Shown here one piece after another: positions 977 through 16,485 of a stretch of 64,000 nucleotides of DNA (positions are counted from its first letter, which is position 1; the number at the start of each line of letters is the position of its first letter). The stretch comes from Kineothrix sp. MB12-C1 (GTDB lineage Bacteria > Bacillota > Clostridia > Lachnospirales > Lachnospiraceae), in assembly GCF_030863805.1 (NCBI RefSeq), contig NZ_CP132957.1, positions 992,001 to 1,056,000 of the forward strand, in the 5' to 3' direction. Both the position numbers and the translations under genes were made by a program. The notes beneath the pieces are model-generated. The model had not been told where the DNA came from, did no database searches, and saw only the letters and a program-made list of their open reading frames with translations.

Positions 977-1951
977 TTATGCTGCCTCCTGCAATGAATC
1001 ATAGTACTGCTGTCGCTTAACCATCGGAGGTAAGCCACCGTTAGCTGAACAGATTCGCCGGTTATTCCAATAGCCGATGAAGTATCTCCAAATAAGAGTT
1101 TTTAACTGTTCTACTGTCATTGAGCTGGTATCGTAACGTCCATAAAGTAATTCCTCTTTGAATCTTGCCCACATACTTTCACATCTGGCATTGTCATGGC
1201 ATCTGCCACCGGCACTGTTCATGCTTTGAAGAATGCCATATTTGTTGATTGCCTTACGATATAACCCGCTGGTATACTGCGTACCTCTGTCACTGTGAAG
1301 AATAGCTCCCCTAAGCATAGGATAGGCTCTATAAGCGTTATCTAAGGTTTGTTCACAAAGGGGAGCTTTCATATTTGTATCCATGGCAAGACCCAATACC
1401 GCTAAATCGTAGCAGTCAAAGATGGCTGAAACATACAGTTTTCCATCAGAAGCTTTTATTTCAGTCATATCAGTAATACATTTTTTTAGAGGTTTTTCAG
1501 CAGTGAAGTCACGTTTTATTAAATCATCTGATTTCCGGGCTTCTTTGTCAGCTTTAGTAATACCATTAGGCTTGCGTTTTGGTTTGTGATTAAGACCAAT
1601 TTCGTCCATGACACGATAAACAGTTCTCTCGCCGGGAATGTGTATACCCTCCGGCTGTTTGAGTTGTAATGCCTGATACATACGGATTCTTCCATAAGTG
1701 TCATTACATTCATCCTCACTACAAATATCAAGCATTGCATCTGCCAATTCCTGATATTTCCATGGAGCATCCTTTGCTTTTAGGTATTTATTGAATGCTT
1801 GTCTGGAAACATGAAGCACTCTGCAATAAAAAGAAATTTTGCCCTTAATCTCGCCGTCATCAGTTTTGGTTGCAATAAACATCAGTCTCTGTTTTTTGCT
1901 GACTTCCGACGGCTGGCTGCGAAAAAGCACTGGCTTCTTCGAGAAATTCAT
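977..1951 (-). CDS. IS3-family transposase OrfB (DDE integrase)
   Basis: This is the catalytic subunit of the IS3 transposase, 324 residues. It has an N-terminal HTH_21-like region (about residues 55-125) and an rve integrase core with the triad D161 (TDMTE), D221 (HSDRGTQYTS) and E258 (CESMWARFKEE), so the DD(35)E site is intact. The ATG at 1951 lies inside orfA, with an in-frame TAA 12 nt upstream. OrfB is in the +1 frame relative to OrfA, not the -1 frame usual for programmed frameshifting in this family, so translation may be independent or require an unusual shift. Confidence 0.93.
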   Translation of the reverse strand: MNFSKKPVLFRSQPSEVSKKQRLMFIATKTDDGEIKGKISFYCRVLHVSRQAFNKYLKAKDAPWKYQELADAMLDICSEDECNDTYGRIRMYQALQLKQPEGIHIPGERTVYRVMDEIGLNHKPKRKPNGITKADKEARKSDDLIKRDFTAEKPLKKCITDMTEIKASDGKLYVSAIFDCYDLAVLGLAMDTNMKAPLCEQTLDNAYRAYPMLRGAILHSDRGTQYTSGLYRKAINKYGILQSMNSAGGRCHDNARCESMWARFKEELLYGRYDTSSMTVEQLKTLIWRYFIGYWNNRRICSANGGLPPMVKRQQYYDSLQEAA

Positions 1952-2222
1952 TTTCTTCTTTTAAACGACGGATTTCCTTATCCTGCTCTTTAATGCGCTT
2001 TTTGAGTTCGATAAGCTCATCGTTAAGAGATAAGGCATTCTTAGGCGTATGAACCGCGTCATTTGCGCTGAGACGACCTTCTTTGAAGGCTTTTATCCAG
2101 GTGTACATAGTACCCTTGGGAATCCCTAATTCGTTAGCTGCTTTATGCCCACCAATTTCCTGAGCAAGTTTTACAGCTTGTGCTTTAAATTCATTGTCAT
2201 AAGATTTTTGATTTTGTGCCAT
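1860..2222 (-). CDS. IS3-family transposase OrfA (HTH/leucine zipper)
   Basis: This is the DNA-binding subunit of the IS3 transposase, 120 residues. It opens with the HTH_Tnp_1 signature (YDNEFKAQAVKLAQE, then NELGIPKGTMYTWIKAF) and continues into a coiled coil (residues about 70-96) with the typical 'LKKRIKEQDKEIRRLKEEN'. The last 26 codons overlap orfB. It recognises the element ends and, fused or associated with OrfB, directs transposition. Confidence 0.92.
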   Translation of the reverse strand: MAQNQKSYDNEFKAQAVKLAQEIGGHKAANELGIPKGTMYTWIKAFKEGRLSANDAVHTPKNALSLNDELIELKKRIKEQDKEIRRLKEENEFLEEASAFSQPAVGSQQKTETDVYCNQN

Positions 2223-2298
2223 AGGTTGTTTCTCCTGTTCTCGTATTGATTATGATTATATATCAAAGTCCTTGAGAATAGGGTGTCAACTTTTATGA

Positions 2299-2436
2299 TA
2301 CAACATCACGCTTTCCTGCGGTGCGGTAAAGGCAAGCGTACAGTATGGTGAAACCGCTTCACCGGAAAGTGAATCCTTATGGACAACGATGCTTGACCCG
2401 GCAGGGCATCCCTTTTGCTTTGTTATTTGGCCTTGA
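2299..2436 (+). pseudogene. 3' remnant of VOC/glyoxalase-like gene
   Basis: The plus strand encodes 45 residues ending at TGA 2434-2436 and containing GAVKASVQYGE followed by LDPAGHPFCFVIWP. The 'DPAGHPFC' tail is a hallmark of the C-terminal end of glyoxalase/VOC-superfamily proteins. The 5' part is missing; the frame runs back into the end of the IS3-family element and a TGA at 2296-2298. It converges on the helicase gene, 29 bp away. The fold is recognised from this motif only. Confidence 0.65.
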
Positions 2437-2465
2437 GATTTGAACCTCACTTCATGGTGATTGAT

Positions 2466-5400
2466 TTATCTGTCAAATTCGTTTTCCTCCTCATCTTCCG
2501 ATGCGTATACCGAAACCTTTTCCGGCTCAAAGCCCTGACCCGCAATGTTGGTGAACCACTGCGACATAAACTCCTTTAAGTCCTGTACCATAGACGGCTT
2601 TGCCTGTGCCGTTTCATAAAAAAGCCCTACATTGTCCTGTAAGAACGATGTAGGGTGAATGGACATATTCCGTTTGTCAATGGTAAAGGTGATTTCCGGG
2701 TCGCGCATGGCGTCACCGTTTTGCGTGTAATAATGTGCAATGCTGTACTCACCGTTACCGATGGCCTCCAGCACCAAATCCTCAAAACCGTCGCTTTTCA
2801 GCTTCATATAGTAAGCGTCCCCGTCAAGGATAGGGCCTGCGAATACCGCCAGCTTCTGATACAGCTTTTGCTCTAAGGTGAGCCGTGCGGATGGTGGCTG
2901 CGTCCTGACGGCCGTGCTTTCCTCGCCGTTTGGTTCCTCCTCCGGCGCCTCCGTACTATCCTCATCCGGCTCTAAAATCTCGTCGGCACTGTCCTTAAAC
3001 TCCAAGGCAAGGTCAAGCTCCACCTTTTTCCTCTGGAGCTGCGCCAGCTTTTCCTCGTTAGGGAACAACTTCTGGCTTTCCAGCTTCGCCGCCTCAAGCT
3101 GCCGGTGCAAATCCGCAAGCTCACCGTGGGAAACCTCCAAATCTCCGGCAATATGCTCCGCCAGATTTTCAATACGGGTGATGTTGCCAAGGGCGGATTC
3201 ACCCATATCGGTGGCATAGCCGCGCTGTCCGTCCAGGACAATCCGCACACTGCTCATCATGCCGCGCTGCAGGGAAACTGAAAAGCCCGCATAGCTGCCC
3301 ATATCCAGTGTATCGCCCACTTCACGCCCCAGCTTGCGGGAGCGCACCATAAAATGCTCGGCAGCTTTGGTTCGCTCCTCATGGGTTCTTCCGTCAATTA
3401 CCATCTGAAACTCAGCCGGTTTATTCTGCCGGTAGGCTTCAAGGTCGGCGGTCATTTTTACAATCTTCTTTTCCGTACTTGTGATTTCATGGGGATAACG
3501 CTTGGAAATATCGTATTGCAGGCTGTTACGCTGGCTCTGCCATGAGGATTTCAACACCGTCAGACGGCTGATTTCGTTGTCCGTTTCCATCTTTTCCTTA
3601 ATCCTTGGATCAGAAACGGCAAGGGCCTTAAACTCGGCGTATTGGAGCATGGTGCTGTCCACATCCTCACAGCTTCGGAGGGTGGAACGGCCGGTCATAA
3701 TCTGGCTGATATACCGCTGTTTCTGTTCTAAAATCTGCCATAGGTACGCATCAAAGGTCTGTTCCGTGATGTAATTAAAAATAGAGATTTCCGGGTTATC
3801 GTTGCCCTGACGGAGAATGCGCCCGTTGCGCTGGATCAGGTCGGAGGGACGCCACGGCACATCTAAATGATGGAGTGCGATTAACTTGTTTTGGACGTTC
3901 ATGCCTGTTCCCATTTTGCCGGTGCTGCCCATGAGGATGCGTATTTCGCCGGTGCGGACCTTTTCAAATAGCTGTTCCCGCTGTACATCTGTCCGGGCGT
4001 CATGGATAAAGGTGATTTCCTCCGGCTTCACGCCCTGCGCGACCAGAACATCCTTGGTGGCTTCATAGAAATTAAAGCTGCCATCGCCCTTTGGCGTACT
4101 CATATCACAGAAGATAAGCTGGGTCAGCCGGTTTTCAGCGGTTTCATGGTAAATCTCCGCCGCTTTCCGGGCGCAGACATTGAGCTTGGTATTGGGATCG
4201 TCCGGCAATTCCGGGTCAATGGCTCTTGGGTCGGTAGACAGCAGGCGGGCTTCTAATGTGAGCTTTAGGAAATTGTCTTCAGAGCTGTCCACCTCACCGT
4301 TTCGGATTTTCTCCGCCCGTTCCGCAAGCTCCATCACGATACGCTTTTGCTCCGGTGTGATTTCCGCCTTGATGACCTGCACCGCACCGGTTTCCAGCTT
4401 CGGAGTAGGCAAATCCAGCATATCGGCGGTTTTGATGTCGGCAATCATCAGGAACATATTCATTAACTCAGGCAAATTGTGGAACTTTGCAAACCGGTTT
4501 TTCATCTGATAGCCGCTGCCCTCCGGCTTGATTTCCAGAGAGGATTCAATCACGCCGTAGGTGCTTGCCCAGCTATCAAACATCAGCAGTCCGCGTTCCT
4601 CCAGCGCTTTCGGCTGCAAGGTTTTTTGCAGAACATACAGCTCCGCCATGGTGTTGGAGATGGGCGTACCGGTAAGATACACCACACCCCGGCCGTCATT
4701 CAGCTCATTGATGTACTGGCATTTCTGGTGCATATCCATGGCGCGCTGGCTGCTGACCCCGGTGATCCCCGCCACGTTTCGCATTTTAGTGTAAGAAAAG
4801 TTGTTTTTGTAGGCATGAGCTTCATCCACAAACAGAGCATCTACGCCCAATTCCTCAAAACTGACAACATCATCTTTCTTCTCCGCCTTAAATAACCGGT
4901 CGTAGCGGAACTGGAGATTGGATTTGAAAATCTCCATCTGCTTGAGCGTCCAGTCCTTGCCTGCACGGAATTTCTGTTCTGCGATAGCATCGGTAATGGC
5001 CTCAATCTCCGCTTCCATAGCGGCAAGCTGCCGTTCTCTGGATAAACCGATCAGTTCAAAGCTGCTATGCCCCATAATAACGGCATCGTATTCCCCGGTG
5101 GCAATCCGGCTGACAAAACGGCGGCGGTTCTTTTTCTCGAAATCCTTTTTCTCCGCCACCAGAATATTGGCGTTGGGGTACATCTTCATGTAATGGGTCG
5201 CCCATTCGCCAACGAGATGATTCGGCACTGCATACAGGGGCTTATGAATCGCCCCCAGCCGTTTCATTTCATAACCCAACCCGATGGCGGCATAGGTTTT
5301 CCCGGCTCCTACCTCGTGCGCCATCAGCAGATTGCCGTCCCCGTAAAGGCCGTGGGCAATGACATCCCGCTGGTGCTTGCGCAGGGTAATCCCCTCGGCC

Positions 5401-8400
5401 ATATCCGGCAGAAGCAAATCATCGCCATTGTATTCACGGGGCCTGATGTTATTAAAACGGTCATTATAGAGCTTGGTCAGACTTGCGCCGCGCTCCGGGT
5501 CGGCAAACAGCCAGCTTTCAAAGGCCATTTTGATTTCGGCCTGTTTTTCACGGGCCAGTATGGTTTCCTTTTTATTGAGAACATATTTGGTCTTTTCCTC
5601 GCCAGTATCCGGGTCAATGTAGTCTACCGGGTCTTTGACCTCCACCGGGCGCAGATTCAGGGTGGTTTCCAGTATGTCATAGGCGTTCATGCGGTCTGTT
5701 CCGTAGGACTGGTTGACCGTGACAGAGGTGCGTTCTGCACTTTTATTGTTGATATGATAAGCGCCGCTGTAACGGGAAAATTCAAGAAAAATACCAAACC
5801 GCCCCGCTTGATTGCCCGGTGCGGTCTGGAAGGTATCGTACATAAACTGCTGATAAATCTCCGGGGGAATCCATGTAGAACCCAGCGTGAAGCTGATGTC
5901 CTGCGGGGTCAGGGGTACGGGCTGTACCAGCTTGAGGGCTTCCACGTTGCGCCTGAACCGTTCCGGTTTTTCCTCCGCCTTTAAGATGGCAGATGTCAGC
6001 TTATCTCTTACATAACCGCTTAAATACTCATCAGCGGTTTTCCAGCCGGTATGCGGATTGTCGGTGTAATCCTCCGGGTCTTGGTAAATCCTATCGCCCA
6101 GCTCCTCTATGATTTCGTCTGGAGTCGCTTTGCGGTGATCGGGACGCTGATAGAGCCAGGACATATAGGCAAGGTCTAATTTGCCTTTGACATTAAGGGA
6201 AACCATCAGGGCTTCTTCTGCGGAATGCACCGTTTTCGGCATAACCTTGGGCTTGATGGTGGCTTTATAAAAGATAGCCGTCTTTTCCCATACGTCCTTT
6301 TGGTCTTTCTGCTCCGCTTCAATGGATCGGAGCAGCGGCGCATTGGAATCCCTCGAAAACGCCATGACGTTGGCGTAGGAATTGAGATACCCCTGCTTTT
6401 TTACAAAGGCATCATAAACATGGTTTAGATGGGCGATATGCTCCTGAAGCTGCTTTTCGTATTCCATAGTGGGCAGCTCATGGAGATCGGCATATTCGCT
6501 GTTCTGAAAATCAATCAGACTGCGGATGGCTGCCGTAACCTCCAGCATACCCCGGATACGCTCGGCTTTCCGTCCGGTGATATTCTGTTTGTACATTCTG
6601 GAATTTTCCCGGTAATACAGTTCACTATCCACCAGCCCATAGCTGAAATTGCGCACGTTAGGGTCGGCAGGGATAGACTCCGGCAGCATTTCTTTTTCGT
6701 CCTCGTATTCCGAGGTGGCTTCGATGTACTCGCCGTCCAGATAGGAAATGGCGCGTTCCAGCCGTTCGTTCAAGTCCTCTCCGGGGATAGGGTGGCAGGC
6801 GGTGGTCTTTTCGTTGCCGAACATGGACTCGTCAAATACCATTTCACCCAGCACCATTTCCGGGTGGTCAATAAAATAGCTGTTCATAGGGATGCCGTCT
6901 GCATTTTGCTCCACAGAAAGCCACGGGCTGTTTTCTTCGTCCGGCACAATTTCTCGTTCCCGCTTTTTGAGGAACAAAATATCCGTGGTGGCTTCCGTTC
7001 CGGCGACCTGCTTAAAAGCGTTATTCGGCAGGCGGATTGCGCCAAGCAGCTCTGCTTTTCCTCCGATGTATTTGCGCATCTTTGAGTTGGCTTTATCCAT
7101 GGTGAATTTGGAGGTAATCAGCGCCAGCATACCGCCCGGACGAACCTTATCCAGCGACTTGGCAATAAAATAATCATGGATGGGGAGGTTATATTTGTTG
7201 TAGCGCGGATCATCCACCTTAATGGAGTTGAACGGCACGTTGCCCACCATGACATCAAAGAAATGGTCGGAAAAAGCCGTCTGTTCAAAGCCTGTCACCT
7301 GAATATCCGCGTCGGGGTAAAGGTGCTTGGCGATATGGCCGGGGACGGGGTCGATTTCACAGCCGTAGAGCTTAGAACCGCCCATACTGTCCGGCAGCAC
7401 GGAGAAAAAGTTTCCTGTACCAAGGGCGGGGTCTAAGATGTTCCCACCCCGAAAGCCCATGTTCTCCAAACCCTTATAAATGTGGCTGATAACGCCCTGC
7501 TCTGTGTAATAGGAGGTCAGGGTGCTTTTCTGCGCCGCCTGAAATTCCTCATCGGTCAACAGCCCTTTGATTTCCGCGTATTCCTTTTCCCAACCGCTTT
7601 TATCCGGTGTCAGGGCATTGGCAAGACCGCCCCAGCCTACAAACCGAGCAAGGGTAATCCGTTCCTCGGCGGTAGCCAGGCGCCCCTGCGCCTGCAATTC
7701 TTTCAGCAGACGGATGGCCTCAATATTGTTTCTGCACTTAGTTTTCGGGCCGCCGTCATACAGGTGGTGGTCAGGGGAATAGCGGTAATTGAAGCCCTCG
7801 CCCCATGCACGGGCATGGAAATCATCCTTAACAGCGTGGTTGTATTCCTCATTGGACTGATTGACAAGGGCTACGCCTTGGATTGCCGCCTTGATTTCTT
7901 CACTGTCATTGCCGCTTTGTACCGCCTCCACCACCATAGAAGCAAGCTCACCTTGGGTATAATGGTCTTTCAGGGGCTTACAGTCCGCAAGCTCGGAGAG
8001 CGGCACACGCTCCGTAATTTTCAGGCTGTTCAGGTTTTTAAGCTGAGAAATATCACCGATTTCAACCGTGCGGCCGTCATGCAGGAATTTGACAATCTCA
8101 ACTACCCGGTCATGGTAGTAAATACGGTCGCCCTCCGCAAACGGCAGGGACTGCGGCTCGTCGGAATTTCCGTCAATTACACTATCATTGTTATCGTCCG
8201 TGCTATCTTCGTAGCTGTCCTGTGCAACGGGAGTCATATCGAATAATGTAAGCTGCCGGTCAGGAGCCTCCTGCGCCGATTCAGGGGCAGGAATATAGAG
8301 GGGTTTACCCTGTGCCTCCAGTTCCGCCTTATCTTCCTCGGTCAAATACTGATCCTGCCGAACCAGCTCCATAATTCGAGTTTCTGCTCTGTCCCAAGTC

Positions 8401-10670
8401 CAATTCTCGTTAATTTCCACTCCGTCATGCTGATAGTCAATGGAAATCACTTTTCCATCATAATTGAGCCGCTTATGGCCGCCATTTTCCAGACCGCCGG
8501 AGTAGCCGCCGGTGCCATGCTCTTTTTTCAATACAGCAACACGGTCTTTCTTGCCCGGAAAAGATACCATTGCCTGATAAATCCGCTGCTTGCCACCTAC
8601 AAAACCGGCACTGCTTCTCAGGATGTCATCAATGATTTCCTGTTTGGAGGGAGGTGCAGGCGTATTGGGATTTACATAGAGGTTGTCTGCTATGAGCAGT
8701 GCAATATTGGCGGCAACCTGTTCCCATGTCAGGTGAATTTTAACGCTTTCCTCCGATTCAAGGATATGAAGATGCAGACCGTCATCATAAGTCCTCGCTT
8801 TTATCAGAATCCCATCCAGTTCAATTTCCCGTCTGCCACCACCGTAAGTTCTACGAACAAAATCAGCTCTCAGGTCAGTATCCTGCTCCCCCTCAAAGTA
8901 ATGCTGAATGGTTTGTTGGAGATACAGTGACTTGGACTGATCCCGCAAGAAGGAATGGATATACCGGCTGTCGGCAGTTTCCGAGGATTCAAACTCCATT
9001 TCCGGCTCATCTTCATCCGCCGCGCCCTGCATCTCGCCCATTTCATCCGGTATGGAGAAATCGTCAAGCATGCTGTCGGCGGAGCTGTACGGGTAAGCAC
9101 CCATCAAAATGAGTTGATCAATGCGGTTTGTAAGCTCTGCATAGCTGGCAGCAAACTGCTGTCCCTCTGTTTCAAAGATCAGACCTTCGCTGTCGGCACG
9201 GATATTCAGGATGTAGTCGCCGGTTTTGGTCATGTACTCCGTATCCAGCTTGCCGTAAAAGGCTTTCAGAATTTTTGCCTTGGTGGTCTGCTTATGACCG
9301 CCCTCAAAGAATTTGTAAATCTCCGATACCCATTCCCGCGTATCAGGTGTCAGGTCATCGGCGCAAAGCACCACATCAATGAGGTCGGAGATTTCTTCCT
9401 CATCCAACGGCTGGACCGTTTCGGATGGTATCGAAGCCGAAGCCTCCGGCTCTGATTTCGGCGGGACAGCAAAAAAGCCGCCCACAGACGGCTGTTTACC
9501 ATCTGTGGGCGGCTCTGCGGTTTGTGTTATCGGGGTTGCAGTACCAATTCGCTGATTACGATTTCCTCCGCTGTGGAGGTTATCATGCTCATGTGACCGG
9601 CTCTCTCCAGCGTATCCTCGGTGTCCGGCATCGGCTGGACCGTGAGAAGCTCCTGTATCAGACGCTCTTTGCGGTTCTCGGCTTCCTCGTCCACTTTCAG
9701 AATCATTTCGTTGATTTTGCCCTGTGCCACCAGCTCCGACAGGCGGTGCGGGTGATTCTCCAGCATGAAGTTCTTCCACAGGCTCCCGAATCTGCCTACC
9801 GGCGTCCGGTCGGTTTCCGCGTTCTTCGAGATTTGCAGTTCGGGGTACATCAGGCCGTCCTCGCCCTGCCGGTAACTGAGGTTCATTAACGGTTCGGTTC
9901 TCATAAATTTGGCTCCTTTCGCTTTTGATCTGCTGAATTTCCTGATAAACTTCTTTCAGGATGGGTCTGGCAAGGGAAACCGTACAGCTTCCCATTGCCA
10001 TAAATAGCTCCAAGCTGTTAAAGTGACTGATATTCTCAAAGGCATTCCGCTCAAACAGCTCTGCGGAAAGCCCGCATTTTTGAAACACGGTGTAGGCGAC
10101 GCTGTCGGTGACAAGCTCAGTAAATTCCACTTTCACCGCTTCGATGGGCGCATCGTAAAGCACACTGCTTTCGTCGCATACCTTGAAGTTTTCCATGTAC
10201 TTCGGTAAAAACTGCCGCGCTCTCTGCTGTACCAGTTTATACAGGCACAGCTCTATGCCGGAGGTAGGGGTATGGTACTTTTCATGGAATTTAACCAGCA
10301 GGCTGGGCTTGTACTGATCCTCCAGCTCCCACAGATAGCTTAAAACCCGTTTGAAGCTCTGTTCGTCACCATTGGTATCCATAATATCAAACAAATGCTT
10401 TAAGCTGGCGGTGGGGTTTGCCATGTCAATGACCGCAATACCCTTTGCCCCTCTGTTAATGCTGCGGTTAATCCGCCTGTCATGCCACTCGTCAAAGGTG
10501 GCAAGCTGAGTGGCGTCGGGGCGCTGGGCGTAAATCAGAACGGCGTTGTCAAAAGATCGCTTATAGTACCTTGCCGCACAGGACAGCAGACCTTTCCACT
10601 CCGCAGGGCTTTTCGTATATTCCTGTACCGACTTTTTATATAGGTCGGCCAGAATGGTTACCTTGCTCAA
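2466..10670 (-). CDS. Giant ICE protein: ArdC-like N-terminus, N6-adenine methylase and SNF2-type helicase
   Basis: A 2734-residue protein of the kind carried by Tn1549-like conjugative elements. In order: an LtrC/ArdC-like N-terminal domain (residues about 1-110), an R/G/E/P-rich linker (about 250-400), a methylase core with motif I LDPALGTGNFF (about 1082) and GNVPF (about 1143; an N-P-P-F variant), then a superfamily 2 helicase with AHEVGAGKT (about 1783), DEAH (about 1948) and RNGRILRQG (about 2278), and an acidic tail. Such proteins are thought to protect or process element DNA during transfer; that role is inferred. Its ATG overlaps the parB stop by 4 bp. The linker (residues about 256-381) is also coded in another frame as tnpV. 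Base composition is more GC-rich than the downstream chromosome. Confidence 0.9.
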   Translation of the reverse strand: MSKVTILADLYKKSVQEYTKSPAEWKGLLSCAARYYKRSFDNAVLIYAQRPDATQLATFDEWHDRRINRSINRGAKGIAVIDMANPTASLKHLFDIMDTNGDEQSFKRVLSYLWELEDQYKPSLLVKFHEKYHTPTSGIELCLYKLVQQRARQFLPKYMENFKVCDESSVLYDAPIEAVKVEFTELVTDSVAYTVFQKCGLSAELFERNAFENISHFNSLELFMAMGSCTVSLARPILKEVYQEIQQIKSERSQIYENRTVNEPQLPAGRGRPDVPRTANLEERGNRPDAGRQIREPVEELHAGESPAPPVGAGGTGQNQRNDSESGRGSREPQRASDTGASHGPADAGHRGYAGESRSHEHDNLHSGGNRNQRIGTATPITQTAEPPTDGKQPSVGGFFAVPPKSEPEASASIPSETVQPLDEEEISDLIDVVLCADDLTPDTREWVSEIYKFFEGGHKQTTKAKILKAFYGKLDTEYMTKTGDYILNIRADSEGLIFETEGQQFAASYAELTNRIDQLILMGAYPYSSADSMLDDFSIPDEMGEMQGAADEDEPEMEFESSETADSRYIHSFLRDQSKSLYLQQTIQHYFEGEQDTDLRADFVRRTYGGGRREIELDGILIKARTYDDGLHLHILESEESVKIHLTWEQVAANIALLIADNLYVNPNTPAPPSKQEIIDDILRSSAGFVGGKQRIYQAMVSFPGKKDRVAVLKKEHGTGGYSGGLENGGHKRLNYDGKVISIDYQHDGVEINENWTWDRAETRIMELVRQDQYLTEEDKAELEAQGKPLYIPAPESAQEAPDRQLTLFDMTPVAQDSYEDSTDDNNDSVIDGNSDEPQSLPFAEGDRIYYHDRVVEIVKFLHDGRTVEIGDISQLKNLNSLKITERVPLSELADCKPLKDHYTQGELASMVVEAVQSGNDSEEIKAAIQGVALVNQSNEEYNHAVKDDFHARAWGEGFNYRYSPDHHLYDGGPKTKCRNNIEAIRLLKELQAQGRLATAEERITLARFVGWGGLANALTPDKSGWEKEYAEIKGLLTDEEFQAAQKSTLTSYYTEQGVISHIYKGLENMGFRGGNILDPALGTGNFFSVLPDSMGGSKLYGCEIDPVPGHIAKHLYPDADIQVTGFEQTAFSDHFFDVMVGNVPFNSIKVDDPRYNKYNLPIHDYFIAKSLDKVRPGGMLALITSKFTMDKANSKMRKYIGGKAELLGAIRLPNNAFKQVAGTEATTDILFLKKREREIVPDEENSPWLSVEQNADGIPMNSYFIDHPEMVLGEMVFDESMFGNEKTTACHPIPGEDLNERLERAISYLDGEYIEATSEYEDEKEMLPESIPADPNVRNFSYGLVDSELYYRENSRMYKQNITGRKAERIRGMLEVTAAIRSLIDFQNSEYADLHELPTMEYEKQLQEHIAHLNHVYDAFVKKQGYLNSYANVMAFSRDSNAPLLRSIEAEQKDQKDVWEKTAIFYKATIKPKVMPKTVHSAEEALMVSLNVKGKLDLAYMSWLYQRPDHRKATPDEIIEELGDRIYQDPEDYTDNPHTGWKTADEYLSGYVRDKLTSAILKAEEKPERFRRNVEALKLVQPVPLTPQDISFTLGSTWIPPEIYQQFMYDTFQTAPGNQAGRFGIFLEFSRYSGAYHINNKSAERTSVTVNQSYGTDRMNAYDILETTLNLRPVEVKDPVDYIDPDTGEEKTKYVLNKKETILAREKQAEIKMAFESWLFADPERGASLTKLYNDRFNNIRPREYNGDDLLLPDMAEGITLRKHQRDVIAHGLYGDGNLLMAHEVGAGKTYAAIGLGYEMKRLGAIHKPLYAVPNHLVGEWATHYMKMYPNANILVAEKKDFEKKNRRRFVSRIATGEYDAVIMGHSSFELIGLSRERQLAAMEAEIEAITDAIAEQKFRAGKDWTLKQMEIFKSNLQFRYDRLFKAEKKDDVVSFEELGVDALFVDEAHAYKNNFSYTKMRNVAGITGVSSQRAMDMHQKCQYINELNDGRGVVYLTGTPISNTMAELYVLQKTLQPKALEERGLLMFDSWASTYGVIESSLEIKPEGSGYQMKNRFAKFHNLPELMNMFLMIADIKTADMLDLPTPKLETGAVQVIKAEITPEQKRIVMELAERAEKIRNGEVDSSEDNFLKLTLEARLLSTDPRAIDPELPDDPNTKLNVCARKAAEIYHETAENRLTQLIFCDMSTPKGDGSFNFYEATKDVLVAQGVKPEEITFIHDARTDVQREQLFEKVRTGEIRILMGSTGKMGTGMNVQNKLIALHHLDVPWRPSDLIQRNGRILRQGNDNPEISIFNYITEQTFDAYLWQILEQKQRYISQIMTGRSTLRSCEDVDSTMLQYAEFKALAVSDPRIKEKMETDNEISRLTVLKSSWQSQRNSLQYDISKRYPHEITSTEKKIVKMTADLEAYRQNKPAEFQMVIDGRTHEERTKAAEHFMVRSRKLGREVGDTLDMGSYAGFSVSLQRGMMSSVRIVLDGQRGYATDMGESALGNITRIENLAEHIAGDLEVSHGELADLHRQLEAAKLESQKLFPNEEKLAQLQRKKVELDLALEFKDSADEILEPDEDSTEAPEEEPNGEESTAVRTQPPSARLTLEQKLYQKLAVFAGPILDGDAYYMKLKSDGFEDLVLEAIGNGEYSIAHYYTQNGDAMRDPEITFTIDKRNMSIHPTSFLQDNVGLFYETAQAKPSMVQDLKEFMSQWFTNIAGQGFEPEKVSVYASEDEEENEFDR
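9527..9904 (-). CDS. tnpV: TnpV-like protein nested out of frame in the helicase gene
   Basis: A 125-residue open frame on the same strand as, but in a different frame from, the methylase-helicase gene. It resembles the TnpV family of transposon-encoded proteins (PF14198): LSYRQ near the start, VGRFGSLWKNFMLENHP in the middle, KVDEEAENR, and a C-terminal AEEIVISELV. An AAAGGAG sequence lies 8 nt before its ATG, a better ribosome site than chance would give. TnpV function is unknown. The family match comes from remembered motifs. The position inside an unbroken host frame makes this a dual-coding region. Confidence 0.75.
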   Translation of the reverse strand: MRTEPLMNLSYRQGEDGLMYPELQISKNAETDRTPVGRFGSLWKNFMLENHPHRLSELVAQGKINEMILKVDEEAENRKERLIQELLTVQPMPDTEDTLERAGHMSMITSTAEEIVISELVLQPR

Positions 10671-11704
10671 GTCATTACCACCTCCTGATTCTGTTGTTCA
10701 AAGTATAAAGCCAGTGCCTTATCAATGGTTTCCTCAATTTCCTTTTGGGTCTGCTGTGGAGTAAAATACTTGGAAATCACGGCAGGCTTGATTTTAACGG
10801 GCTGCGGCTTACTGCTTTTGGGTTTGCGGGTTTTCTCGCCGGAGAGGATTTGCAAAATAGCGGTATCGCTCAGTTTTCCGGTTTCGTAGTAGCTATGGAA
10901 CAGCTCCGCTTTTTTCATGTCCACCTTATAGCTGTCGGACTCCATGAGGTCGGCAATCTGCTGTTGCTTTTCCGTATCCTCTACAAAGGAGAGATCATAG
11001 GCGGCAAGGAAAGCAATTTCTTCGGTATCAACCCGTGAAATCAGAGGGTCAATTAAGTTTGAAATACGGATGTATTTTGCTACCTTATCCCGTGAAAGGC
11101 CATAATCCTGACCAAGTTTTTCTCTGCTTTTCAACTTGTGCTGAGGTTCAGCCAAAGTTTCATTTTCGCTGGTATCATGCGGGTTTAAGAGCATTTCAAT
11201 CTCTGCTAAAAGGTCATTTCGCTTACCCTGACACTTCATAGCTTCATAATGCTGGGCAAGGCAGTAGGCACGTTCCGAATGGCTCATGTCAGAGAAAGAG
11301 CGCTGGCGAAGATTGGTTTCCGTAACGATTAAAACGGCGTCCTCATGGGTGAGGTTTTCACGGATGATAACGGGGCCATGGGTCAGTCCCGCAAGCTGGG
11401 CGGCATTTTTACGGTTGTGTCCGCTGAGAATGATATACCGCCCGTCCTCGGTATGCCAAAGGATTATCGGGAGCAGGATGCCAAATTGCCGGATGCTTTC
11501 CACCATATCATCAAGCTGCTGACCCTCATAGAGCTTGAACCTGTGATTTGGAAAGGACTCCATAATACTGAAATCCATTTCCGTGATACCGCCCTGCACA
11601 GGAGCAGGGGCGGTATCACTTTCACTGGTAATTCCTTGCTGCGGTTCAATGCTCAACATTTCTTGAAAATCCACAAAACGGGCTTTCGGTTTTGGTGTAG
11701 CCAT
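10667..11704 (-). CDS. ParB/Spo0J-family partition protein of the mobile element
   Basis: A ParB-like protein of 345 residues. The N-terminal ParB domain (about 50-150) includes LDDMVESIRQFGILLPI and the CTP-binding-type box LSGHNRKNAAQLAG. A helix-turn-helix follows (SREKLGQDYGLSRDKVAKYIR, about 200-220). It would bind centromere-like sites and act with the adjacent ParA in keeping the excised element. Its stop overlaps the giant helicase ATG (ATGA), and it starts 2 nt after the parA stop, so the three genes form one operon. Confidence 0.9.
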   Translation of the reverse strand: MATPKPKARFVDFQEMLSIEPQQGITSESDTAPAPVQGGITEMDFSIMESFPNHRFKLYEGQQLDDMVESIRQFGILLPIILWHTEDGRYIILSGHNRKNAAQLAGLTHGPVIIRENLTHEDAVLIVTETNLRQRSFSDMSHSERAYCLAQHYEAMKCQGKRNDLLAEIEMLLNPHDTSENETLAEPQHKLKSREKLGQDYGLSRDKVAKYIRISNLIDPLISRVDTEEIAFLAAYDLSFVEDTEKQQQIADLMESDSYKVDMKKAELFHSYYETGKLSDTAILQILSGEKTRKPKSSKPQPVKIKPAVISKYFTPQQTQKEIEETIDKALALYFEQQNQEVVMT

Positions 11705-11706
11705 GA

Positions 11707-12519
11707 TTATACGCTCCTTTCCGCAGTTTTGCCCTGCTCCTTGGACAGAAGTTCGTCCACGAATTGCTCATAGGCGATTGCAGCAGGATTTTCCGGCACA
11801 AATTCACAGATGGTCTGATGGTACAGCACGGCTTCCGCCACCTTAATGGAACGGGGAATGCGGGTTTTGAAAATAGGAACCTTATCAGCGAAGCCCTGCT
11901 GAATCATATCGTTTACCTGTGCGGAAAGAATGGTATTAGCGGAATCCATGGTAATCAGGATACCCTCAATACGCAGGCGGTGATTGCTGTTTTTCTGAAT
12001 GAGCTGATAATGTTTCAGCAATTCCGCAAGCCCCTGCGCAGACAAAAGTTCCGCCTGCGTCGGGATGATAAGGCTGTCGGCACACATCATCACGTTAATC
12101 ATTGGCGTACCCATTTGGGGCATACAGTCGATGATGATGTAGTCATAGTCATCCTTGATGGTATCAACATATCGTGTCAGGATATGTTCACGGAAATCCA
12201 CATTGCAGAGATTTCGCTCAAGGGTAAAAAGCTGCGTGTTGGAGGGAATCAAGTCAACCCCGCACTTAGTTTTGAATATGTAGCTGTCAGGCGCGGGCAA
12301 TGGCTCGTCCTCAACCAGCCTGCGTATCAGGGTGTTAATTGTCACCTCCAGCTTATTGGTGTTCTTCACACCGGAAATAATGCTTGAGTGTCCCTGACCG
12401 TCAAAGTCAATCAGGGCGGTACGGTGTCCTCTCTTGGACAGGAGATAGGCAAGCGTGGTTGCCGTGGCTGTTTTTCCCACGCCACCCTTTTCATTGATAA
12501 TCGCAATAATTTTTGCCAT
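11707..12519 (-). CDS. ParA-family partition ATPase of the mobile element
   Basis: A ParA/Soj-type ATPase of about 270 residues with the deviant Walker A EKGGVGKTATATTLA directly after the start, switch motif DFDGQGHSS, and Walker B-like YDYIIIDCMPQMG. The open frame runs up to 12621, but ATG 12517-12519 is chosen because AAAGGAG lies 9 nt upstream and the family begins at MAKIIAI. The extra upstream codons pass through a hairpin and repeat region and are unlikely to be coding. It is the first gene of the parA-parB-helicase operon and lies about 100 bp from the collagen gene that marks host DNA. Confidence 0.92.
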   Translation of the reverse strand: MAKIIAIINEKGGVGKTATATTLAYLLSKRGHRTALIDFDGQGHSSIISGVKNTNKLEVTINTLIRRLVEDEPLPAPDSYIFKTKCGVDLIPSNTQLFTLERNLCNVDFREHILTRYVDTIKDDYDYIIIDCMPQMGTPMINVMMCADSLIIPTQAELLSAQGLAELLKHYQLIQKNSNHRLRIEGILITMDSANTILSAQVNDMIQQGFADKVPIFKTRIPRSIKVAEAVLYHQTICEFVPENPAAIAYEQFVDELLSKEQGKTAERSV

Positions 12520-12536
12520 CGGCGCACTCCTTTCTT

Positions 12537-12572
12537 GGGTAAATGATTTGGGTAAGGGGTAAATAGGGTAAA
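12537..12572. repeat. Four GGGTAA(A) direct repeats upstream of parA
   Basis: The plus strand carries GGGTAA at 12537, 12550, 12557 and 12566, four copies in 36 bp, between the parA ribosome-binding site and the hairpin at 12577. Spacings are 13, 7 and 9 bp. Short repeats directly before a parA gene are commonly operators or ParB-binding sites; that use is inferred. Confidence 0.55.
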
Positions 12573-12634
12573 AAAATTGGACTAAGATTAGCGAAAAACC
12601 CTTTGATATAGCGGTTTTCACTTACTTAGTCCAA
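12570..12634 (-). terminator. Large hairpin at the collagen-gene/mobile-element junction
   Basis: TTGGACTAAG (12577-12586) pairs with CTTAGTCCAA (12625-12634), extended by AT pairs to 12 bp. An inner stem GAAAACC/GGTTTTTC lies between the arms, and on the minus strand seven T follow. It can serve as the terminator of the collagen gene, whose last four sense codons and stop lie in the distal arm and loop. It may instead mark the end of the mobile element, because host-type and element-type genes meet here. Confidence 0.6.
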
Positions 12635-13469
12635 TTATAACAGAGTCACCTGTTGCTCCTGTTGCTCCCGCTGGACCTTCCGGGCCTGCTGGACCTATCG
12701 GACCCTGAGGGCCTTCCGGACCTATCGGACCTTGAGGACCGGTTGCTCCCGTTGCTCCCGCCGGACCCTGAGGACCTTCCGGACCTATCGGACCTTGAGG
12801 ACCGGTTGCTCCTGTAGGACCCTGAGGACCTTCTGGACCTATCGGACCTTGAGGACCGGTTGCTCCCGTTGCTCCCGCCGGACCCTGGGGGCCTTCCGGA
12901 CCTTCCGGGCCTGCTGGACCGGTTGCTCCTGTTGCTCCCGCCGGACCCTGGGGACCTTCCGGACCTATCGGACCTTGAGGACCGGTTGCTCCTGTTGCTC
13001 CCGCCGGACCCTGAGGACCTTCTGGACCTATCGGACCTTGAGGGCCGGTCGCTCCTGTAGGACCCTGAGGACCTTCTGGACCTATCGGACCTTGAGGGCC
13101 GGTCGCTCCTGTAGGACCCTGAGGACCTTCTGGACCGGGAGGACCTTCCGGACCGGGAGGGCCAGGAGGGCCTTCCATAGTAGACGCGGCAAGGGCACTT
13201 TCCATCTTTGCTTTCAAAAGAAGCTGGTTTTGCATGGTTCCATCCAAAATATCACGTACATTCCTATTTACCTCAAGAATTTCTTCAATGGTAGCATCGG
13301 AACCGGTCATTCCTGGAAGTGTTCCAAGTGCATATTGAATTTTCTCTCCTTCAGCATTTATGATATGACTCAGTCCCAACTCTTCCATGGCAATGGAAGT
13401 CAAGATATAATTTACCGCTTCATCGCGGCTGATGGGAGTTGTTAACTCCGGAAATCTTGGTAATGACAT
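12618..13469 (-). CDS. Collagen-like spore-surface protein 1 (headless)
   Basis: A 283-residue protein. Residues 1-99 are the shared N-terminal domain ([20 protein letters not shown]...), residues 100 to about 272 are an uninterrupted collagen domain of about 57 Gly-X-Y triplets ([15 protein letters not shown]), and only about ten residues (DSVIIGLSK) follow. The three sister genes carry 139-233 residues of globular head after their repeats, so this copy looks truncated, probably by the mobile element ending next to it. The promoter is of sigma-K type, so late mother-cell expression and an exosporium or spore-surface place are inferred. The repeated DNA is prone to length change. Confidence 0.88.
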
Positions 13470-13512
13470 GTTTTTTCTCCTTATTGTACTGTTGTTATTT
13501 TATCTTCAATAA

Positions 13513-13576
13513 TATTCTATGTACGACAAAGAGATCGGTTCCCTATTTATGACATATCTTGTCGTATTTTGTCATA
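13513..13576 (-). promoter_or_regulatory. Sigma-K-type promoter and upstream box, collagen gene 1
   Basis: Read on the minus strand, AAC (13538-13540), 16 nt, then CATAGAATA (13513-13521) fits the sigma-K consensus AC-N16-CATAnnnTA. Directly upstream (13541-13576) is a box with repeated TATGACA-like units shared by all four collagen genes. AAGGAG precedes the ATG. Confidence 0.7.
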
Positions 13577-13690
13577 AGTTTAAATGACACGCTATTTGGT
13601 ATTTCTTCACCTGATTATGTGAAATATAATAAACTATAGCGGAAAAGGAAAGGGATGCCTCCTCCTATGAGTCTAGAAAACATAGTTTAG

Positions 13691-13728
13691 GAAAAGATAG
13701 GCAGAAGATATCCTCCGCCTATCTTTTC
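13691..13728. terminator. Hairpin terminator downstream of collagen gene 2
   Basis: GAAAAGATAGGC (13691-13702) pairs with GCCTATCTTTTC (13717-13728), a perfect 12-bp stem with a short U-rich tail in both directions. It lies beyond the repeat element that follows collagen gene 2. Confidence 0.6.
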
Positions 13729-13746
13729 TTTAAAACTGATTGATTA

Positions 13747-13893
13747 TAACAGTTCAGTCCCCTCACTGTTACAAAAGCAAAGATTGCTTTGTGAAAATTC
13801 ATCAAAATCACCTTCAGTGATGGGATTTTCACTCGCGCTTCTACGCCTTCTTACGGTCAGCGCAGTAAATGCGCAGACCTGCTGAATAGTTGC
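13747..13893. repeat. Long structured copy of dispersed palindromic repeat (copy A)
   Basis: About 147 bp. It starts with the short palindrome TAACAGT-TCAGTCCCCTC-ACTGTTA and ends with GACCTGCTGAATAGTTG, whose complement matches the left end. Internal hairpins include AAGCAA...TTGCTT and GCGCAGTAAATGCGC. The copy at 18100-18258 shares ends, order of hairpins and the last hairpin exactly. It lies between collagen genes 1 and 2. Confidence 0.7.
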
Positions 13894-13911
13894 GTTTGAT
13901 TATCTATTTGT

Positions 13912-14967
13912 TTAATTCAGCTTTATAATCGTAAGCGAAGCGCCTTGCCCGAGAGTTGCAATATCCCCTGATCCACCAAATAATATAAGCGAAATGACGG
14001 CATTGGCCAGCAATTGTATAAGGCAAGTCAAAGAGGCAGAAAGAAGATTCTCGCCTGTCACAGAATCTGTAATAGATGGTAGATAAACTGTGGGCGTGGG
14101 CAGCGCTCCGGCAGATATAGCAACGCCAATCGGCGGGTTATCAACCGTTACATCAACCGTGTAAGCAACTAGATAGGTTCCAGCGTCAGTTACCTGGAAT
14201 TGCGTGTTTCCTGCAATCGGGGTAATACCAAGAGAACTGACCTCGGTATCGAGGTCTATAGGTGTTCCCCCATTAATCAATAGATCTAGTGTATAGGTTC
14301 CCGCATCTTGAAAGGCAAAAAAAGCGGTTTGCGTTGGAGTGGGGCCTTCTGGGCCTTGAGGGCCTTCTGGACCTTCCGGACCTGTTGCTCCTATCGGGCC
14401 CTGAGGACCTTCCGGACCTTCCGGACCTGTTGCTCCTATCGGACCCTGGGGACCTTCCGGGCCTTCCGGACCTGTTGCTCCTATCGGACCCTGAGGACCT
14501 TCTGGACCTTCCGGACCTGTTGCTCCTATCGGACCCTGGGGACCTTCCGGACCTGTTGCTCCTATCGGGCCCTGAGGACCTTCTGGACCCTGAGGGCCTG
14601 TTGATCCTTCCGGACCCTGAGGACCTTCTGGACCCTGAGGGCCTTCCGGACCGGGAGGACCAGGAGGGCCTTCCATAGTGGATGCGGAAAGGGCACGTTC
14701 CATCTTTGCCTTCAAAAGAAGCTGGTTCTGCATGGTTCCATCCAAAATATCACGTACATTCCTGTTTACCTCTAGAATTTCTTCAATGGTTGCATCGGAA
14801 CCGTCCATACCTGGAAGTGTTCCAAGTGCATACTGAATTTTTTCTCCTTCGGTATTTATAATATGGCTCAGTCCCAATTCCTCCATGGCAATGGAGGTCA
14901 AGATAAGATTTACTGCTTCATCGCGGCTGATGGAAGTTGTTAACTCCGGAAATCTTGGTAATGACAT
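13912..14967 (-). CDS. Collagen-like spore-surface protein 2
   Basis: A 351-residue protein with the shared N-terminal domain (1-99), about 37 Gly-X-Y triplets (100 to about 210; dominant unit [15 protein letters not shown]) and a 141-residue C-terminal head rich in beta-strand-forming residues ([22 protein letters not shown], ending SLTIIKLN). The head resembles the C1q/BclA-type jelly-roll trimerisation domains that cap collagen-like spore filaments; this is recognised by pattern only. It has the same sigma-K-type promoter and upstream box as its sisters. A surface location on the spore is inferred. Confidence 0.87.
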
Positions 14968-15010
14968 GTTTTTTCTCCTTATCGTACTGTTATTATTTTA
15001 TCTTCAATAG

Positions 15011-15076
15011 TATTCTATGTATAATAAAGAGGTTTGTTCCCTGTTTATGGCATATCTTGTCATAATCTGTCATATC
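15011..15076 (-). promoter_or_regulatory. Sigma-K-type promoter and upstream box, collagen gene 2
   Basis: On the minus strand AAC (15036-15038), 16 nt, CATAGAATA (15011-15019). The conserved TATGACA-repeat box occupies 15039-15076. This is the same architecture as genes 1 and 3. Confidence 0.7.
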
Positions 15077-15238
15077 TTTTAAATGGGCAACCACATAATA
15101 AAGTACTTCCTACCGAAAGGATAAAAGATTAAATTATCAACTTTTTCACACCTTGCTCACAGTGCTCAGGAAGATATTTCGACCTTATTGATTCTTACAA
15201 TATTCTGTCTTCCCTGTGCAGAAGTAATTTCACAAAAA

Positions 15239-15265
15239 TGCCAGGGCAGTTTTACTACCCTGGCA
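15239..15265 (-). terminator. Terminator of collagen gene 3
   Basis: TGCCAGGG (15239-15246) pairs with CCCTGGCA (15258-15265). On the minus strand the stem is followed by ATTTTTG. It lies 65 bp beyond the collagen gene 3 stop, and a near-identical copy is found at 16737-16761. Confidence 0.8.
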
Positions 15266-15330
15266 CAGAAAACTCAATGAATATTCTGATGCAAGTATTT
15301 CGGACAGAACCTGAATAATCTTATAAGATA

Positions 15331-16485
15331 TTACCGTTGGTCGCTAATCGATGCACCGCTGTTATTTTCACTGAGAACCACAAGCGGATCATAGGGGGCA
15401 CCGGATATCGTTCCTAAAAGCAACGCGATATCAACAGCGTTTTCAGGGATGCCCCATGAGTTTCCTGAGAAGACGAAAATTGCTCGGTCAACAACAAATC
15501 CTCGGGTGTCATATACGATGTTACCTGTAATGAATCCAGTGGAATTAGGATTCAAATAAGCTGGTTGACGCATGGAATAGAAAATGTTGTTCTGCACCAG
15601 AAGGTTTGTTACATTTCCCTGCGTAACAAAACCGCGGTTAGTAACCCAATCTATAGAAGGACCACCCTGCGCAGGCCCATAAATTACAGAATTAATGATC
15701 TTATTATTAGCGCCCGCAAACTGAATAAATTCCACCGCATACGGATTATCACTCGTTATAGTAAAACCGTCAAGGGTGTTACCACCGCCTGTAACCAAAA
15801 AGGCTATTACAGCGTTTTGTAGCTCGATAATAGCAGCGGGAGAAGCCTTGAGCATAACGTTGGCTTTGTTAAGGTTAATTGTGGTTGTTACCGGATACGT
15901 CCCCGCAAGGATATTAACCGTTCCTCCCGGAGACACAGCTGCAATCCCTTCCTCTATCGTCCCGAAGGGATTGACTTGTGTTCCATCTCCGCCCACGCCC
16001 CCCGCCTGAACATAAACATCGAACGGGTTAAATCCCGCGGGCCCCGGAGGACCTTGAGGACCTTCTGGACCCTGGGGGCCTTCTGGGCCTTGGGGACCTT
16101 CTGGGCCTGTCGGACCCTGGGGACCTTCCGGGCCTTCCGGGCCTTCCGGACCCTGGGGACCTTCCGGACCGGGAGGGCCAGGAGGACCTTCCATAGTGGA
16201 TGCAGAAAGGGCACTTTCCATCTTCGCTTTCAAAAGAAGCTGATTCTGCATGATCCCATCCAAAATATCACGGACATTACTGTTCACCTCGAGAATTTCT
16301 TCAATGGTAGCATCGGAACCGGTCATACCAGGCAATGTTCCAATCGCATACTGAATCTTCTCTCCTTCGGCATTTATAATATGGCTTAGTCCCAGCTCCT
16401 CCATAGCAATGGAGGTCAAGATAAGATTTACCGCTTCATCGCGGCTGATAGGAGTTGTTAACTCCGGAAATCTTGGCAATGACAT
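15331..16485 (-). CDS. Collagen-like spore-surface protein 3 with beta-helix head
   Basis: A 384-residue protein: shared N-terminal domain (1-99), a short collagen domain of about 17 triplets (100 to about 151), then a 233-residue head unlike its sisters. The head begins [19 protein letters not shown], has [24 protein letters not shown], and repeats with N-rich turns ([32 protein letters not shown]). That is the pattern of a right-handed parallel beta-helix (pectate-lyase-like). No polysaccharide-lyase active site is recognisable, so binding is as likely as catalysis. Promoter and upstream box match the family. Confidence 0.87.

Follow-up and report, generated by a model that had tools for sequence, protein, structure and literature searches.

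Sequence evidence for a tnpV gene nested out of frame within a giant methylase-helicase gene

We analysed a 64,000-nucleotide stretch of the Kineothrix sp. MB12-C1 genome (contig NZ_CP132957.1, positions 992,001 to 1,056,000; called the window below), in which a giant open reading frame (ORF) for a methylase-helicase, referred to as the host, spans a second and much shorter frame for a TnpV protein on the same strand. Judged from the sequences, we consider it probable (about 0.8) that tnpV is a genuine gene lying out of frame within the giant methylase-helicase gene of a mobile-element family, and that selection acts on the shared bases through both reading frames. The profile match, the conserved nesting and the constraint seen site by site place the predicted nested gene past chance. 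Long nested genes of bacteria are hard to accept if the candidate is without homologues or clear constraint. For the nested tnpV, a curated protein family, a single phase, frozen silent sites, a ribosome site, a terminator-like hairpin and hosts having tnpV as a separate gene are in agreement, in Clostridia as well as in Bacilli. These loci offer a natural set for studying the sharing of bases by two proteins, a terminator inside a read-through gene and the fusion of domains across an intervening gene.

The nested frame and its distribution

The original prediction described a 125-codon frame with its own AAAGGAG and TnpV motifs, out of frame inside an unbroken 2734-codon ORF, and a host linker rich in R, G, E and P at residues ∼256–381. 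Both descriptions were borne out. The translated short frame matched the TnpV family (Pfam PF14198) over nearly the whole model (residues 11–121; 76 bits, cut-off 27; E-value 2.9e-21), and the R/G/E/P content was 47% in host residues 256–381 versus 26% over the whole host. The tnpV ATG starts within host residue 256 and its stop codon spans host residues 381–382 (Table 1). The third frame of the minus strand has 12 stops across the overlap. The domain order of the host ORF is an N-terminal domain, the linker, an Eco57I-type methylase (25.8 bits, cut-off 25.3), an SNF2-type helicase (SNF2-rel_dom 37.6 bits, cut-off 24.9; Helicase_C 33.6 bits, cut-off 23.5) and DUF6908. The N-terminal domain had no Pfam match at E ≤ 1 and is ArdC-like by similarity (tblastn matches to records annotated 'ArdC-like ssDNA-binding'). 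AlphaFold2 predicted TnpV as a beta hairpin followed by helices, with a predicted local distance difference test score (pLDDT) of 88; host residues 258–423 scored below 50 in a structure model that was poor overall.

The same nesting was present in all 13 close homologues (nine GTDB contigs and four IMG/VR loci, three of the latter being nearly alike), whose TnpV identity was 63–91%. We searched a profile of the host N-terminal domain against 391 genomes of one class. Eighty-nine genomes matched and ∼139 places were listed, from which 90, the window's own included, were fetched; the remaining 49 were mostly short ORFs or partial matches. TnpV lay inside the host ORF in 80 of the 90 places (63/70 in a first batch and 17/20 in a further one, four of these 17 being weak at 14.3 to 21.1 bits), and always in the same phase. 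As 'nested' means TnpV inside a host ORF, L101 and L109 were counted despite the interruption of their hosts at that place; contig ends, insertions or breaks leave several host ORFs short (355–715 codons). Among the ten non-nested places, three have tnpV as a separate gene (L052, L056 and L121, the same as L135, L132 and L133, respectively), and in two (L059 and L089) the sequence stops at an apparent contig end. L093 has an intact TnpV with a host-frame stop inside it, in L182 the host ORF ends ahead of an intact TnpV, and the 186-codon host ORF of L183 is without TnpV. In the two remaining places, L118 and L175, TnpV was not seen.

Nesting was found both in Clostridia and in Bacilli. Plasmids of Virgibacillus, Cohnella, Listeria seeligeri (nested frame 62 bits in Pfam) and Carnobacterium (50.6 bits) carry it, and further cases are present in the named records of R. 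albus, Monoglobus and Subdoligranulum. Carriers include Virgibacillus sp. Bac332 (L046) and Lacrimispora amygdalina (L041). The suggestion that the nested gene is widespread is thus upheld by the 80 of 90 places in one class and by the Bacilli records; a search for stops breaking the TnpV frame, which had been proposed as a check, found the frame nested and open in those 80.

TnpV and the giant appear to travel together. Their identities (TnpV versus host N-terminus) co-vary with a Mantel r of 0.89 across 77 loci. Where tnpV is a separate gene, it is found in the order parA, parB, tnpV, one or two small ORFs and the giant (L132 and L135), or immediately precedes the giant, from which a hairpin and T run separate it (L133). 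In hosts without a nested tnpV, a short linker replaces the long R/G/E/P-rich one (by eye; L056, L118 and L121).

Two side observations concern the tnpV region and its family. An antisense ORF of 154 codons (window 9425–9889, plus strand) spans most of the overlap and has no Pfam match; as the three antisense frames opposite tnpV lack stops in 25, 1 and 8, respectively, of the 76 nested loci, this ORF is probably a mere effect of composition. The same genome carries a second TnpV (83 bits), not nested and outside the window (G000:C1:910226-910549, minus strand).

Selection on the two frames

We assembled 76 distinct nested loci having a TnpV match of at least 40 bits, an open host frame and a host N-terminal match, with identical TnpV DNA removed. 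When the host protein was held fixed and its codons were redrawn, the TnpV frame stayed open in a median of 13% of the draws (19% for the window). That the TnpV frame is open is therefore weak evidence by itself, and this figure favours the view of the giant as the sole gene, with the TnpV frame a by-product of linker composition. This view has next to no chance of being right, as it is contradicted by the PF14198 match, by the frozen host silent sites, by the differences among host codon positions and the two-frame change counts described below, and by the codon bias at the Shine-Dalgarno (SD) motif and the terminator. In the reverse experiment, in which TnpV was fixed and the codons were redrawn, the host frame stayed open in a median of 0% of the draws (largest value 0.8%), the mean number of stops being 8.4.

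Host third positions, which the original prediction had proposed to examine for free variation, do not vary freely in the overlap. Pairwise differences at host codon positions 1/2/3 were 0.328/0.183/0.122 in the overlap and 0.265/0.215/0.509 upstream of it in the 13 close homologues, and 0.321/0.255/0.529 further downstream (12 homologues). Among pairs sharing the host residue, four-fold sites differed in 4.6% in the overlap versus 53.4% upstream and 48.7% after it. The 125-column span with the lowest four-fold difference begins at column 244, while the overlap occupies columns 250–374. The ratio of nonsynonymous to synonymous change (omega) was 0.23 for the TnpV frame, 1.67 for the host frame over the same bases, with a synonymous divergence (dS) of 0.18, and 0.07 for the host upstream (34/78 pairs usable). 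The near-frozen silent sites support the earlier claim that the linker is shaped by double coding.

We then counted changes in 22 close pairs, each read both ways; these pairs overlap, so the counts are not independent. Changes silent in TnpV and altering the host were seen at 374 of 4667 transition and 90 of 4395 transversion opportunities, and those silent in the host and altering TnpV at 126/5410 and 4/6685, respectively. None of the TnpV-silent changes created a host stop (0/692 transitions, 0/384 transversions), where ∼63 would be expected from the rates of TnpV-silent, host-changing substitutions. The frozen host silent sites and the absence of such stops indicate that both frames are selected. 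On this pattern, TnpV is the conserved protein and the predicted host linker is a freely changing passenger that is required to stay open.

The free change of linker residues also fits a second alternative, in which only TnpV is a gene and the giant is in reality two proteins, the host frame being open by accident; the Cohnella and Monoglobus records, which annotate TnpV and no giant spanning it, are in line with this. We consider it very improbable. If the host frame were unselected, ∼8.4 host stops would be expected per locus (76 loci, themselves selected for an open host frame), and among the 90 places not so selected just L093 and L182 have the host frame closed, inside or ahead of tnpV. 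The lack of TnpV-silent changes to host stops in the close pairs argues against it as well.

Expression signals and the order of origin

The putative nested tnpV has a ribosome site of its own and, usually, an intrinsic-terminator-like hairpin; part of the family also has a promoter-like site. All of these signals are embedded in the host coding sequence. The ATG is preceded by an SD-like motif at 3–13 nt in 75 of the 76 distinct nested loci, a count that is biased because start choice favoured such motifs. Codon usage gives a comparison free of this bias: among the 59 loci whose host protein has Glu-Arg immediately ahead of the ATG, 57 use AGG for the Arg, whereas AGG makes up 12.6% of the Arg codons elsewhere in the hosts.

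The hairpin of the window begins ten bases past the tnpV stop, has 19 pairs (−37.5 kcal/mol; z −9.7) and runs into six T, three of them counted within the stem. In the 13 close homologues 98.4% of the hairpin cells are paired versus 37–60% when the arms are slid, and the covariation score is above that of every shuffle (0/500 as high). Within 120 nt past the tnpV stop, a hairpin with a T run was found in 58/75 nested loci, compared with 14/394 random host positions and 27/1500 dinucleotide shuffles; among the thinned representatives the number was 28/40. The form of the hairpin is constant between groups while its letters change.

A promoter-like score of at least 6 was obtained upstream of tnpV in 52% of 75 loci, versus 10% of 375 host positions and 18% of the shuffles. 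On sliding the scan, this excess ends once the scanned segment begins 50 nt or less before the ATG, and a weaker excess (24–33%) reaches back to ∼350 nt. Host Tyr-Asn codons lie 24–75 nt ahead of the ATG in 23/75 loci; each of these 23 carries a TA[TC]AAT hexamer (TATAAT in 17, TACAAT in 6) with TTG at a distance of exactly 17 nt upstream of it. The terminator-like hairpin, the promoter-like sites and the variants with tnpV as an upstream gene are evidence that tnpV and the giant belong together, and not of the role of TnpV, such as that of a hidden regulator suggested in the original prediction.

The sequences show a host frame kept stop-free, which retains the N-terminal domain and the methylase-helicase in one reading frame. 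We propose that a short transcript would make TnpV and end at the embedded terminator, and the giant would be made only on read-through by the polymerase, helped by host-frame ribosomes crossing the hairpin, so that the terminator may set the TnpV-to-giant ratio. As the tnpV stop is 10 nt ahead of the hairpin, a ribosome ending there would partly cover it, while a host-frame ribosome would run over it. TnpV might act with the giant, or with the transfer or recombination of the same element, because the three hosts with a separate tnpV have it close to the giant. We also suggest, with reserve, that a complete transcription unit (promoter, ribosome site, frame and intrinsic terminator) has been kept in the giant gene, two domains having been fused by read-through of a working gene, and that its terminator became a switch for the level of the giant.

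Several observations weigh against the reading of tnpV as a genuine nested gene with its own signals. The loci are related by descent and their counts are not independent. TnpV was not seen with the giants of L118/L134 (18.8 kb contig) and L175 (4.6 kb stretch), so it may be dispensable there or have diverged past detection. No structural match of weight was found for its predicted fold. By the rule used, 17/75 nested loci have no terminator-like structure, nor was such a hairpin found after the separate tnpVs of L132 and L135. Only two hairpin pairs have changes on both sides, which shuffles match in 97/500. In the window's own clade there is no good consensus promoter (the best score in the window is 4.77, with no minus-strand hit at 9905–10670), and a protein motif may contribute to the promoter hexamer, because the hexamer sits on host Tyr-Asn codons in all 23 related loci.

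Regarding the origin of the overlap, we compared TnpV and host trees. The 142 TnpV rows were reduced by removing long-branch or broken rows by hand (16 for a quick tree and 19 for a careful one) and by thinning identical rows in the quick tree and rows >85% alike in the careful tree; L154, a TnpV with an open host-like frame and without the host domain, was counted as stand-alone. With midpoint rooting, the TnpV tree and the host N-terminus tree each separate the window's group from the rest, with nested loci on both sides, and most stand-alone TnpVs fall within the second nested group (nested B). Holding nested B together costs 23 log units in the larger quick tree (approximately unbiased (AU) test, p-AU 0.147) and 29 log units in the careful tree (p-AU 0.047), the test being borderline overall. 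In the careful tree rooted on the window's group, 41/43 stand-alone TnpVs and 33/41 nested-B members lie behind a 99/100 branch. The original interpretation stands in part: the linker is shaped by double coding, while these borderline AU values fall short of showing an overprinting origin of either the linker or TnpV.

In one tentative account, tnpV and its terminator at first separated two genes, one for the N-terminal domain and one for the methylase-helicase, which later became fused through a new open frame running across tnpV, the linker being the newcomer. The linker being the unconstrained frame (omega 1.67 versus 0.23), an overlap unit that is a whole cassette with SD motif and terminator, the short linkers of the three hosts without nested tnpV, and the frequent terminator of stand-alone TnpVs (19/28) are in its favour. 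The trees, which put most stand-alone TnpVs inside the nested diversity, are not, and the ancestral three-gene arrangement did not turn up, no dedicated search having been made for it.

The opposite order, in which TnpV was overprinted in the linker and the stand-alone TnpVs of Tn4451-type transposons escaped later, seems to us rather unlikely. The clustering of stand-alone with nested-B TnpVs behind the 99/100 branch and the lower p-AU agree with it, whereas the larger quick tree gives the higher p-AU, the alignment has only 115 columns and the root of the tree is assumed. A folded conserved protein is, moreover, unlikely as the by-product of a disordered linker. Escape would be in keeping with L162 (G076:C216; reverse complement 1808–5232), where an element with its own tnpV and with serine-recombinase-like and MobQ-like genes (the latter two named by eye) is found right at the 3' end of the nested tnpV, the point at which the host ORF stops; this element appears to be an insertion in the nested tnpV. 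TnpV-bearing cargo is reported to enter the snf2 genes carried by S. suis elements (PMC9815147), which would allow tnpV to move in either direction. In L109 (G016:C5), both the host and the nested tnpV are cut within TnpV by foreign-looking sequence, which may be a second sign of the overlap as an insertion spot.

Known systems, annotation and neighbouring features

The nested protein agrees in family and size with the mobile-element-borne TnpVs of Tn4451, Tn6104 and their kin (PF14198). In Tn4451-type elements tnpV is its own gene and is found with large serine recombinases, and an Xis-like excision role has been postulated for TnpV of Tn4451 (passages of PMC3158075); the window tnpV, in contrast, is embedded in another gene and has no adjacent recombinase. 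No large serine recombinase is present among its identified neighbours (host, parB, parA and IS3 genes); such a neighbour is a habit of the known TnpV members and lies outside the Pfam definition of PF14198.

The host resembles the DarB-like methylase-helicase or polyvalent proteins, in which an adenine methylase and an SWI2/SNF2 ATPase are likewise joined in one giant protein of conjugative elements, often with ArdC-N at the N terminus (passages of PMC5512222). It differs in that its linker double-codes a second gene, and the word TnpV is absent from the main text of PMC5512222. Work on the long overlapping genes of E. coli O157:H7 likewise proposes two proteins from the same bases in bacteria; the cases listed there are antisense, whereas tnpV is on the same strand, belongs to a curated family and occurs in Clostridia and Bacilli. 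In Streptococcus agalactiae, an snf2-type giant (CP138365) has a like N-terminal domain (101 bits); a candidate TnpV frame there, matching in phase and with a hairpin after it, reaches only 16.2 bits in Pfam (cut-off 27). We presume this giant to be kin of the snf2 gene discussed in passages of PMC12942858. In the titles, opening parts of abstracts and passages covered by our literature search, with subscription journals largely outside it, no description of a TnpV nested in an SNF2 or helicase gene was found.

Annotation seems to list one or the other of the two genes. The records of Virgibacillus, R. albus, L. seeligeri and Carnobacterium annotate a giant spanning the place and no TnpV; that of Cohnella annotates TnpV and no giant, and that of Monoglobus TnpV and only the later part of the giant. 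Among the annotated records examined, four therefore have the spanning giant, two have TnpV and none has both, which indicates an annotation gap; as the plasmid gene table is incomplete, this tally is an impression and not a survey.

Table 1. Features of the locus, in window coordinates
Feature	Position	Strand	Remarks
Nested tnpV, 125 codons + stop	9527..9904	minus	ATG start; +1 frame of host; PF14198
SD motif of tnpV (AAAGGAG)	9913..9919	minus	8 nt before ATG; inside host codons Glu-Arg
Intrinsic-terminator-like hairpin + T run	9471..9516	minus	hairpin 9516-9474, T run 9476-9471; inside host ORF
Giant host ORF	2466..10670	minus	2734 aa, TTG start, unbroken; methylase-helicase
Host N-terminal domain, residues 1-255	9905..10670	minus	conserved among homologues
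Host linker, residues 256-381, predicted passenger frame	9528..9905	minus	omega 1.67, dS 0.18
parB-like gene, directly upstream of host	10667..11704	minus	ParB_N, HTH_ParB
parA-like gene, upstream of parB	11707..12621	minus	AAA_31 + ParA families

The stop of the parB-like gene overlaps the start of the host. A Q[LI][ST]LF motif, which we take to resemble a sliding-clamp-binding motif, occurs after the host linker (window 8241–8255, minus strand; host residue 806); in the linkers of hosts without a nested tnpV (L056, L118 and L121) it is close behind the N-terminal domain. IS3-type transposase genes lie just past the 3' end of the giant ORF (window 977–2222, minus strand). At window 12618–16485 (minus strand), three adjacent ORFs have a common N-terminal module followed by collagen-like Gly-X-Y repeats.

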